A DNA stretch of 28,243 nucleotides from IMG/VR virus record IMGVR_UViG_3300050139_000114, positions 1 to 28,243 of that record. The stretch is one strand, 5' to 3'. Below, piece by piece: positions 1,649 through 25,462 of the stretch (positions are counted from its first letter, which is position 1; each line of letters opens with the position of its first letter). The notes beneath the pieces are model-generated. The model was given only the letters and a program-made list of their open reading frames with translations. It was not told the origin of the DNA and did no database searches. Both the position numbers and the translations under genes were made by a program. Origin of the DNA: a virus.

Positions 1649-2215
1649 TTATGTCCAATCTTCGGTCAGGTATTGCCCTGCCAGTGCGTTAATCTTGTCC
1701 ATGTTCTTGCCTGTCCAGACGTTGTGTTTAACGCTGTCATGCAGGGTTGAGGGAATATAAATTACGTCCTCCTTGTTAATGTGATGCCCGTCGCTGTTGG
1801 GAAACCATGAGTTCAGGAGGTTCCAACCAAGAAGGCGGCGTTTGGCGCGAGACTTTCTCCAAGACACTCCCTGACCGCCCCTCCAATTTCCAATAGATAT
1901 CTTGGCGCGGGTTTCGGGAGACATAATGCGCCCCATCAGCGTGGCAGACGTTTTTGCGCGAGTTTCAGGGGATGGATTCGCGTGCGCAACGCACAACCTT
2001 GCACATGTTTCCGGCGATGCTTTATGGCCGGTAAGTGTGGCAGATATCTTTGCCCGTGTCTCGGGACTCGTAATATGTCCCTTCTGTGCCGCAGATACCT
2101 TCGCCCGAGCGACATCAGATTGCGGAACCCCCACGTGCGGATTAGAGCGTCCGGTGAGAGATGCTGATATTTTCGCCCGCATTTCGGGAGTGCGAACGAA
2201 TGCGCCCTTGGGCAT
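1649..2215 (-). CDS. NUMOD3-repeat HNH-type homing endonuclease
   Basis: 188 residues, SD GGAGG ahead of ATG 2215. The N-terminal two thirds are repeats of the form SPETRAKISATLTGH (about six copies, residues 8-110), matching the NUMOD3 DNA-binding motif of intron-type endonucleases. The C-terminal part has a basic patch (KSRAKRRLLGW), then DGHHINKEDVIYIPSTLHDS and HNVWTGKNMDKINALA, an HNH-like arrangement with paired histidines. It lies between the scaffold and small head genes in the same direction, so it is a free-standing mobile gene carried by the late operon. A paralogue with the same layout lies at 14708-15283 on the other strand. Its target is unknown. Confidence 0.82.
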   Translation of the reverse strand: MPKGAFVRTPEMRAKISASLTGRSNPHVGVPQSDVARAKVSAAQKGHITSPETRAKISATLTGHKASPETCARLCVAHANPSPETRAKTSATLMGRIMSPETRAKISIGNWRGGQGVSWRKSRAKRRLLGWNLLNSWFPNSDGHHINKEDVIYIPSTLHDSVKHNVWTGKNMDKINALAGQYLTEDWT

Positions 2216-14707: not shown

Positions 14708-15283
14708 ATGACAGACGAACAGAAAGCAAGGTTGTCTGTGGCACTAATGGGGCACACGGTATCGCCTGAAACCCGTAAGAAGATTTCTCTTATAAATACC
14801 GGTCGTGCCCAGTCTCCCGAACTGCGGGGGAGAAAATCCGCCACGTTGATGGGGCATACGGTGTCCACGGAGACTCGCGCAAAGATTTCTTTGGGGAATA
14901 TGGGAAATACAAAATGGTTAGGTTCTCACCATTCGGCAGAAACTATTGCCAAAATCACCGCGTGGAATCGAGGCAAAATTGTTTCTCCCGAAACGCGGGC
15001 AAGAATATCTGCTGGTCTGTGGAAGGGTGGCCAGATGATTGCCAACGGGCGACGTCGTGCCAAACGTCGCTCAATGGGGTATGTCTTTCTAAACAAATGG
15101 TTTTCCGGCTGCGACGGCCACCATGTGGACAATGAACAAATTATCAATATGCCAAGGAAATTGCACCGAGGCAAAGGAAACGGCCACAATCATTATACCG
15201 GAAGGGGTATGGCTCGAATGAATGCCATTGCATACAACTTTCTTTTCAAACAAGAGGTCGAAGCGGCCTTAGGGGTGAACTGA
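14708..15283 (+). CDS. NUMOD3-repeat HNH-type homing endonuclease, second copy
   Basis: 191 residues from ATG 14708. The sequence before it lacks a clear SD, unlike nearly all genes here. Repeats of VSPETRKKISLINTGR type fill residues 15-115 (NUMOD3). The C-terminal region has RRRAKRRSMGYVFLNKWFSG, then CDGHHVDNEQIINMP and HNHYTGRGMARMNAIAYNF, in line with the HNH-like C-terminus of the copy at 1649. The two are paralogues on opposite strands. It probably moved in between the metallophosphoesterase and the copy 3 gene. Confidence 0.82.
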   Translation: MTDEQKARLSVALMGHTVSPETRKKISLINTGRAQSPELRGRKSATLMGHTVSTETRAKISLGNMGNTKWLGSHHSAETIAKITAWNRGKIVSPETRARISAGLWKGGQMIANGRRRAKRRSMGYVFLNKWFSGCDGHHVDNEQIINMPRKLHRGKGNGHNHYTGRGMARMNAIAYNFLFKQEVEAALGVN

Positions 15284-22246: not shown

Positions 22247-22816
22247 ATGGGAGAATCATATACAGCGCGTGAATGGACTGTACAGGTAATCGTGGACAAA
22301 TATGGCCCGTCTCCCAAGACGGGTTCAAGCAAGCTGACCTTCACCGCAACCGACGGCAACGTTTCCACTACCGTCAAGCGGTGGTTCAAGAAAGACGAGG
22401 AACTGTGGACGGCTGGCAAGAAGTTCACTGCCGCGCTTGAGGAAGTCACCAATACCTACGGCACCGACCTCATGGTGAAAGAGGACAAGCCCGCTTTCGG
22501 GGGTGGGTTCAAGAAGGATGACCCTCAAAAGGAAGCCCGCATCATGCGGGGCAACGCCCTGAACGCGGCGAGTTATCTGTTCGCGGGGAAGGGAAAGGAC
22601 TGCCAGGGCGCGATGTGGGCAACCTTCCGCGCAATGGACGAGTTCCTGAAAACGGAGAAGCGGGTTAGAATGTCCACCACCGAGCAGCACGCGGCCATCG
22701 TCAAGATGTTCAAGGACGACATTCCAAACGCCCGCGCCGCAGTGTGGAACAAGTTCGGGCGGGAGTATATTGAGGAGCTCTCGTTCGAGGAGGCGGCCTC
22801 TTTTCGTGGGGAGTAG
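22247..22816 (+). CDS. 189-residue protein, possible single-stranded DNA-binding protein
   Basis: ATG 22247 lies 6 bases after AGGAGG, about 50 bases from P3. Residues 8-75 alternate strands and charged turns (EWTVQVIVDKYG, SKLTFTATDGNVSTTVKRWF, KFTAALEEV), compatible with an OB fold. The second half is helical (NALNAASYLFAGKGKDCQGA). Having its own strong promoter and SD, and lying next to the nuclease and replication genes, fits an abundant DNA-binding protein. No diagnostic SSB tail is present, so the role is inference. Confidence 0.5.
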   Translation: MGESYTAREWTVQVIVDKYGPSPKTGSSKLTFTATDGNVSTTVKRWFKKDEELWTAGKKFTAALEEVTNTYGTDLMVKEDKPAFGGGFKKDDPQKEARIMRGNALNAASYLFAGKGKDCQGAMWATFRAMDEFLKTEKRVRMSTTEQHAAIVKMFKDDIPNARAAVWNKFGREYIEELSFEEAASFRGE

Positions 22817-23085
22817 CGATCCCCGCCTAGCCCTTCTTCTTTGGACGTTTGACGCACATGAAGTATAGCTGGTGGTTCCCTTAAAACACATCCGTGGCAG
22901 GAATGCTGACGAAACCTTAATTAGACGGGTAACGAGATGCGGAATGGGTACGTCTAGCCAGCAAGTCCGGTTCGGACTGAGTTACCAGCTTCCGATTAAA
23001 TGACAGGACGCTCTCTTAAGGAGCGCAAGACTGTCAGCCGGACAATTAAAACGAGCCAGTGTAATATATTCTAAGGAGGTCGACA
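22817..23085 (+). ncRNA. Structured leader RNA with pseudoknot and kink-turn (candidate riboregulator)
   Basis: No gene is seen. Helix 1 is TTAGACG (22921-22927) with CGTCTAG (22951-22957), 7 pairs with one U-G. Helix 2 is GGTAAC (22928-22933) with GTTACC (22981-22986). The 5' strands are contiguous and the pairings cross, giving an H-type pseudoknot. AGTCCG-GTT-CGGACT (22964-22978) is a hairpin in its second loop. Next comes TGACAG (23001-23006)/CTGTCA (23031-23036) and CGCTC/GAGCG, separated by GA on one side and CAAGA on the other. This matches a kink-turn: three-base bulge CAA, then tandem G-A/A-G. The SD of the next gene follows about 37 bases later. No known riboswitch class is recognised. 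Confidence 0.6.
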
Positions 23086-23361
23086 ATGACAACAGTTGAA
23101 TCACTTTTCGTCGGCGATGACAGGTTGTTTGGAGTAGAGATTGTGTTCAAGGACGGCAAGACGGACTATATAGACCCCGTGGAAAATGGCGGGGTTAGCG
23201 AATCCAACGATGAGTACTTTGTGTGCAACGGAGCGTTCACCTATCCATACAAAAAGGCGGATGTTGCCGACTTGCGCCGAGTCAAGATTTGTCAGAGCTG
23301 CTACTACGAAGTCGAAAACTGTCATTGCAATATAGAGGGGGTTGGCAATGACAACAGTTGA
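23086..23361 (+). CDS. 91-residue protein with four-cysteine C-terminus
   Basis: ATG 23086 lies 6 bases after an excellent AAGGAGG. It begins MTTVESLFVGDDRLFGVEIV, mostly beta-stranded, and ends with KICQSCYYEVENCHCN, a C-x2-C-x6-C-x1-C metal-binding knuckle. Its translation is the likely target of the structured leader just upstream. No family is recognised. Confidence 0.7.
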   Translation: MTTVESLFVGDDRLFGVEIVFKDGKTDYIDPVENGGVSESNDEYFVCNGAFTYPYKKADVADLRRVKICQSCYYEVENCHCNIEGVGNDNS

Positions 23362-23725: not shown

Positions 23726-23747
23726 AAGGCCCCGCAAGGGGCCTTTT
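23726..23747 (+). terminator. Intrinsic terminator of the rightward early operon
   Basis: AAGGCCCC-GCAA-GGGGCCTT (23726-23745) forms an 8-bp stem with a GNRA-type loop, and T23744-T23747 gives the U-run. It starts 6 bases after the last early stop codon. Confidence 0.9.
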
Positions 23748-24755: not shown

Positions 24756-25027
24756 GTCCTGGCTCCTTAGCCTGCCCCCGTAGAACTAATCTTGCGGGGT
24801 ACGATTGTGCGGAACGGCCCTATTGAAAGCCGCTAAAGCCCCGAGACTGACATCTCGGTGTTGCCTCTCTGGGCAACGTGGTCACCGTGTTCTGACCCTA
24901 TGGACCACACGTACGGAACTGGCTGGATTTGCCCCCCATTCTAACCCTCGGTAGGGAATACGGGTGCCAGGGTACTATTAGTGCTGGCTCGCTGGCCTGC
25001 CCCCGTAGGTCGAACCTTGCGGGGTAC
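24756..25027 (-). repeat. 47-base unit repeated twice inside the candidate RNA
   Basis: Copies at 24756-24802 and 24981-25027 match at 39 of 47 positions. Both hold a CCCCG/CGGGG hairpin with an inner stem whose third pair changes from G-C to A-U, a compensatory change, and a GGC/GCC hairpin. Spacing is 225 bases. The pattern implies selection on RNA structure after duplication. Confidence 0.75.
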
Positions 25028-25093
25028 ACATTTCAGAACCTGGCGCGTGCCCTTTGGCACGGCTTTAATCGCGAAGGCTAACCCTTCTATACT

Positions 25094-25121
25094 ATTATAC
25101 GGGTTTTAGTGTTTCCTGCAA
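25094..25121 (-). promoter_or_regulatory. Promoter P4, leftward, for the candidate RNA
   Basis: On the minus strand: TTGCAG (25121-25116), 16-base spacer GAAACACTAAAACCCG, TATAAT (25099-25094), then AGTA. The -35, -10, spacer length, GAAAYAC start and CG end equal those of P3. Its -35 lies in the last codons of the 25106 gene. Transcription should begin near 25087. Confidence 0.82.
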
Positions 25122-25462
25122 GGGGTACACTGGCCCTTTTTCTTCTTTTTATTCCGCTCCACCAATGCTTTGACCATTTGCTTGGATACCTGATAGTTGT
25201 TGTCCTCATCAAGCCCGCATCCCGTCAAGTATTGGAGACAGTGGAATAATTCATGGGCTATCGCCAGGCGAGTTCGGTACTGTGACATTTTCTCCATGAT
25301 AAGAACCTCAACCGTTTGATAGCCCTTTGTTCCAGGGGGAACGTTGGTCACTCCCTCTGGTGCTTTCCCGTCTGGTTCCTCCCCGACAGAACGGGGAACG
25401 TCCTTGTAAGCCTCTAAAAGCTTTGCGGGTACTTTCTCAACGGTTATCACCGTGTATTTCAT
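25106..25462 (-). CDS. 118-residue protein with HExxH zinc-metallopeptidase motif
   Basis: ATG 25462 overlaps the preceding stop (ATGA). Residues 64-80 read TRLAIAHELFHCLQYLT, with H70-E71-x2-H74, the zincin motif; no third ligand is certain. The N-terminal half is Pro/Gly-rich (NVPPGTKGYQTVEVLIMEKM). The tail is Lys-rich then CTPCRKH, a possible extra metal site. It is the last gene of this minus-strand run, behind a large virion protein. It could be a virion-associated protease or an inactive fold; substrate unknown. Confidence 0.6.
   Translation of the reverse strand: MKYTVITVEKVPAKLLEAYKDVPRSVGEEPDGKAPEGVTNVPPGTKGYQTVEVLIMEKMSQYRTRLAIAHELFHCLQYLTGCGLDEDNNYQVSKQMVKALVERNKKKKKGQCTPCRKH

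Follow-up and report, generated by a model that had tools for sequence, protein, structure and literature searches.

A probable conserved RNA three-way junction with a kink-turn arm preceding an accessory gene of an uncultivated phage

Phage RNAs with a described structure include the leader of T4 gene 32, which contains a pseudoknot, and the packaging RNA of phi29, which is built on a three-way junction. Kink-turn hairpins placed before a translation start have been described in archaea, where those of the l7ae 5'-UTRs are of a sequence class for which folding is predicted to require protein, and they stay open in the absence of L7Ae (PMC6298567). A kink-turn is also predicted in the intergenic structured RNAs RAGATH-18, HOLDH, drum and Actinomyces-1, four motifs that PMC8191799 discusses among the 224 structured RNAs of the Breaker laboratory. 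Protein-dependent folding is also found among the kink-turns of box C/D RNAs, in which G:C at the -1b:-1n position is frequent (PMC5689011).

The DNA analyzed here (the window, 28,243 bases) derives from an uncultivated phage carrying genes for a P22-like portal protein, a large terminase, a DnaB-type helicase, a Toprim primase, a DNA methyltransferase and a PD-(D/E)XK nuclease. Named phages are distant, with identities of at most 28% for the helicase and the terminase among the matches listed. The close relatives compared were G003 (43.6 kb, containing region L005), G001 and G002 (L003 and L004), and G004–G006 (L006–L008); L005 is the closest, followed by L006–L008. The forward gene block of the window ends at about 23720, and a bidirectional terminator-like hairpin (23726–23745) is located just beyond it. 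Two putative homing-endonuclease-like genes were also observed, one with a NUMOD3 motif (14708–15283, plus strand) and one whose resemblance was judged by eye (1649–2215, minus strand). Comparison with the relatives further revealed repeat-like stretches of about 47 bases at 24756–24802, 24981–25027 and 25081–25127, in or beside a gene-poor region; they are possibly an origin or a regulatory region. The features of the RNA locus are listed in Table 1.

Table 1. Positions of the features discussed, in window coordinates unless another region is named
Feature	Position	Strand	Basis or remark
Conserved +1-frame reading, VGSSDPRLALLLWTFDAHEV then stop	22806–22868	+	Overlaps 3' end of gene 22247–22816; codon-position pattern, four phages
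Variable segment, with most of the first proposed pseudoknot strands (22921–22955)	22875–22955	+	Unrelated 84 nt in L005; absent in L006–L008
Core RNA, three-way junction (P1, P2, kink-turn arm P3)	22965–23043	+	Folding and covariation
P1 5' strand GUCCGG, partner 23038–23043	22965–22970	+	Two compensatory changes in L006
P2 hairpin UCGGA-CUG-[AGUUAC]-CAG-cu-UCCGA	22972–22995	+	Folding
Junction strand UUAAA, P2 to P3	22996–23000	+	Invariant in window, L005 and L006
P3 kink-turn hairpin	23001–23036	+	Three compensatory changes; every non-stem letter invariant
P1 3' strand CCGGAC	23038–23043	+	Covariation
Linker, P1 to Shine-Dalgarno	23044–23072	+	AAAACGAGCYAGUGUAAURUAUUCU conserved; window/L006 alignment
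Shine-Dalgarno AAGGAGG	23073–23079	+	Sequence
Downstream gene	23086–23361	+	91 aa; ATG 23086
Start module sites	window 18774, 20857, 23074; L003 5632, 6038; L006 5753		

A conserved folded RNA structure is very probably present at this locus. The window and L006 are alignable from 22963 to the start codon, while L005 matches the window identically from 22956 through the core, the linker and the next gene. Two independent versions of the core, those of the window and L006, emerged from the searches described below. They differ by 12 substitutions, ten of which form five compensatory pairs; of the other two, one lies in the loop of P2 and one disrupts P1 at its outermost pair. In P1 of L006, U-A is replaced by G-C and C-G by U-A, the outermost pair being lost. 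When the same number of substitutions was placed at random and the best helices were picked afterwards, five compensatory pairs were reached in 1 of 20,000 sets. Paired cells amounted to 98% and dropped to 20–46% when the 3' strands were slid; a column-shuffle control with two sequences has a floor of about 3%. In both versions the 79-nt core, folded alone, adopts this one junction as its minimum free energy and centroid structure (z -3.92 in the window and -3.64 in L006), and its pairs retain high probability inside the longer leaders. Since all 16 paired letters of P2 are invariant and its single change lies in the loop, this hairpin offers no covariation test, and its support comes from folding. 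The first-pass annotation had proposed a structured RNA with a kink-turn directly before a strong Shine-Dalgarno sequence, and the five compensatory pairs indicate that such an RNA is indeed under selection for structure.

The unpaired letters are more constant than the P1 and P3 stems: 1 of 29 unpaired positions changed versus 11 of 34 paired positions of P1 and P3 (p 0.004), and 19 of 76 four-fold degenerate sites nearby (25%) changed. This pattern bears on the unlikely explanation that the RNA is a passive element of the message, guarding it from decay or insulating the translation start with no partner molecule. Such a role would suit the stable fold, its place between two genes of one block and the different genes that follow it, but a mere stabilizer would not need invariant loops and the exact letters of a kink-turn.

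The P3 arm reads TGACAG-GA-CGCTC-TCTTAAG-GAGCG-CAA-GA-CTGTCA, which is the standard kink-turn consensus. It comprises an NC stem UGACAG/CUGUCA (23001–06/23031–36), a C stem CGCUC/GAGCG (23009–13/23021–25) closed by the loop UCUUAAG (23014–20), the bulge CAA (23026–28), and the tandem G-A/A-G (23007–08 with 23029–30). The letters are those given in the first-pass annotation, and the bulge and the tandem G·A/A·G are unchanged in the window, L005 and L006, in contrast to the covarying stems. The signature, with minimum stem lengths of five and six pairs, occurs once on the plus strand versus about 0.1 times per shuffled strand. These letters are strand-specific, which points to an RNA of the plus strand, in the sense of the gene. 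In the nomenclature of PMC8191799, 1b:1n is G23029:A23008, 2b:2n is A23030:G23007, L1–L3 are CAA, 3b:3n is C23031:G23006 and -1b:-1n is G23025:C23009, the last two being the same in L006. With a Watson-Crick 3b:3n pair, ions induce little folding or none, and a G:C pair at -1b:-1n prevented Kt-7 from folding even when L7Ae was present (PMC8191799); C at -1n is the main feature of a non-folding box C/D kink-turn (PMC5689011). Ion-induced kinking is expected where 3b:3n is not Watson-Crick and -1b:-1n is not G:C, and P3 has neither property; they are not obligatory in a kink-turn, being absent from box C/D members. With C:G at 3b:3n and G:C at -1b:-1n, P3 fits the kink-turn consensus and is predicted not to kink tightly in Mg2+ alone, so that a protein or a tertiary contact would be needed.

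In this respect P3 differs from RAGATH-18, HOLDH, drum and Actinomyces-1, which have A:G or C:C at 3b:3n (PMC8191799). It shares the -1b:-1n pair with box C/D kink-turns; those, however, belong to eukaryotic and archaeal RNPs, and the phage RNA has no sign of guide architecture. In archaeal l7ae leaders the Shine-Dalgarno sequence forms part of the kink-turn stem and L7Ae is the product of the gene, whereas here the kink-turn ends at 23036 as an arm of a three-way junction and the Shine-Dalgarno sequence follows about 30 nt past P1 (29 nt beyond the junction end). No genes of the L7Ae family (PF01248) were found in four phage records, while control genomes were positive. Should the kink-turn belong to the protein-dependent class, a phage message or RNA in a bacterium would seem to rely on a protein that binds kink-turns, a situation little explored.

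The class of the kink-turn also makes it very improbable that the RNA is the aptamer of an undescribed class of metabolite riboswitch. A three-way junction with an invariant junction strand and loops is suggestive of one, and kink-turns are common in riboswitches (PMC4316175), but by the sequence rules P3 is not of the ion-folding type found in most of them, no expression platform was seen, and the genes behind the RNA in different phages are mutually unrelated and not recognizably metabolic. Rfam returned no match at the gathering score for the window, nor at E values up to 10 for 22800–23120, so that no known riboswitch or leader family was recovered. In none of the three leaders does the stable core itself pair with the Shine-Dalgarno sequence, and no switching mechanism is therefore visible; nor was a conserved promoter, terminator or partner sequestering the Shine-Dalgarno sequence found. 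Sequestration, or pairing of the P2 loop with the linker (UUAC with GUAA), was considered and, though possible, rejected, as it involves only four invariant pairs and is at chance level by estimate.

Searches for further relatives of the core with DNA patterns in IMG/VR yielded only the same phages or chance matches, blastn against phage and plasmid records returned nothing real for the core, and no paralogs of the RNA were found in the same phages. A pattern scan of genome contigs mostly matched a Lachnospiraceae protein gene instead, and a covariance model run on about 800 sampled genomes gave two weak, chance-like matches without a kink-turn. The locus contributes a structured RNA that is missing from Rfam and whose compensatory evolution is clear; no named phage is closely related to this phage group. 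The phi29 packaging RNA shares the three-way junction with it, but here there is no Rfam match, the phage has a P22-like portal and a large terminase, and the neighbors of the RNA are accessory genes.

The first-pass annotation had placed a different structure in this leader, an H-type pseudoknot made of 22921–22927/22951–22957 (TTAGACG/CGTCTAG) and 22928–22933/22981–22986 (GGTAAC/GTTACC). These strands are complementary and cross as described, but they pair no better than chance would allow: when crossing helices were sought using simple stacking energies, the best two in 22900–22993 reached -20.9 kcal/mol, versus -23.1 (sd 3.2) for dinucleotide shuffles of the same segment, and 75% of the shuffles were as good. 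Likewise, the whole 269-nt leader folds no better than its shuffles (z -0.78). The homologous leaders do not keep the crossing helices, GTTACC being retained in L005 while GGTAAC and TTAGACG are gone, and all three strands being absent from L006. In the fold common to the window and L006, 22981–22986 is taken up by P2. The hairpin proposed for the second loop (22964–22978) is not conserved either, since two of its five pairs are broken in L006 with no compensatory change. Covariation thus supports P1 and P3 and neither of these elements. An alternative pseudoknot in the variable segment of the window, modeled on that of L005 (UCCGUG/UGCGGA with UUAGACG/CGUCUAG), was matched by 48% of shuffles and rejected, as were readings of the crossing helices as HDV-like, group I P3/P7 or hammerhead, for which inspection by eye found no core letters and Rfam gave no match. 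The case shows that a visually perfect pseudoknot can be due to chance and that two homologs are enough to decide.

Hardly credible, accordingly, is the model in which the pseudoknot and kink-turn leader is bound by the protein of gene 22247 in the manner of T4 gp32; what speaks for it is the presence of complementary strands in the window. Apart from the missing pseudoknot, this locus differs from the T4 gene 32 leader in that the 22247 gene is not the one behind the leader. G001 and G002 keep this gene at 89% identity and do not have the RNA, which lies 3' of the gene and before a different one; both observations argue against feedback by its product. The AlphaFold model of the 22247 protein, with a mean pLDDT of 39, was too poor to use.

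The boundary of the leader with this gene also needs revision. An open +1 frame begins at 22650 and is conserved at the protein level in four phages (VGSSDPRLALLLWTFDAHEV and its relatives), and changes between the window and L006 fall mostly in its third codon positions (3, 3 and 8 at the first, second and third). The codon-position pattern suggests that 22817–22868 is probably coding in this frame, either as a mini-gene with a GTG start or as a +1 frameshift extension of the 22247 protein (TCT TTT C GTG). The leader proper, initially set at 22817–23085, would then begin near 22869.

Between this frame and the core, phages of the group differ. The 81-nt segment of the window (22875–22955) and the 84-nt segment of L005 (5632–5715) have a global alignment score not above that of shuffles, and their flanks are nearly identical (GCTGG...CCAGC). 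In G001 and G002 both the variable segment and the core are missing, and the Shine-Dalgarno sequence of the next gene directly follows the upstream frame. A rather improbable reading of this arrangement is a new phage RNA family in which a constant three-way-junction and kink-turn scaffold would carry an exchangeable 5' domain and act in trans on a host factor through the protein-dependent kink-turn. The L005 segment contains a strong H-type pseudoknot (UUCACGUGCC/GGCACGGUGAA with UUUCCCCG/UGGGGAAA), equaled by none of 500 shuffles; it has no match in Rfam.

The gene behind the RNA codes for the 91-aa protein in the window and L005, and for an unrelated 105-aa protein in L006, while the element and its linker to the Shine-Dalgarno sequence are kept, an arrangement not expected of a switch dedicated to one product. 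It would also agree with a trans-acting phage small RNA, a possible but not favored explanation, in which the junction, released from an early transcript, would bind a host or phage protein or dimerize via the palindromic CUUAAG loop, independently of the gene behind. The core forms a very stable, self-contained unit (-33 kcal/mol for 79 nt), its loops and internal loop are nearly invariant, and it is absent as a unit from G001 and G002. On the other hand, no plus-strand promoter or terminator belonging to the RNA was found, and the conservation of the linker along with the core better fits a leader.

We give about an even chance to the RNA being a conserved cis-acting, protein-dependent 5'-UTR element belonging to an accessory gene close to where the forward gene block ends. 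The element would be read as RNA from the plus strand, and the kink, not self-forming in Mg2+, would arise when a protein binds or when the P3 arm makes a tertiary contact. A candidate partner is a host protein of the L7Ae family, such as YbxF or YlxQ, both cited as kink-turn binders in PMC4316175, or some phage protein; since the phage records yielded no gene of the L7Ae family, a partner from that family would have to come from the host. Once folded or bound by protein, the element may then set the translation or stability of the following message. As the genes behind it are unrelated from phage to phage, such an RNA would be a general expression module rather than a gene-specific metabolite or autoregulatory switch. 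The blocking of even L7Ae-induced folding by G:C at -1b:-1n in Kt-7 (PMC8191799) counts against a protein-dependent leader, as do the small number of independent core versions, the failure to see a switching mechanism or a conserved promoter or terminator, and the negative search of these phage records for L7Ae-family genes.

Several accessory genes, the one behind the RNA included, have in common a start module AGGAGG..ATGAC..AAGGTNGAGGA, which encodes MTxVEEL. Some of the genes sharing it are otherwise unrelated, a pattern that looks as if recombination had joined new genes onto a common start.
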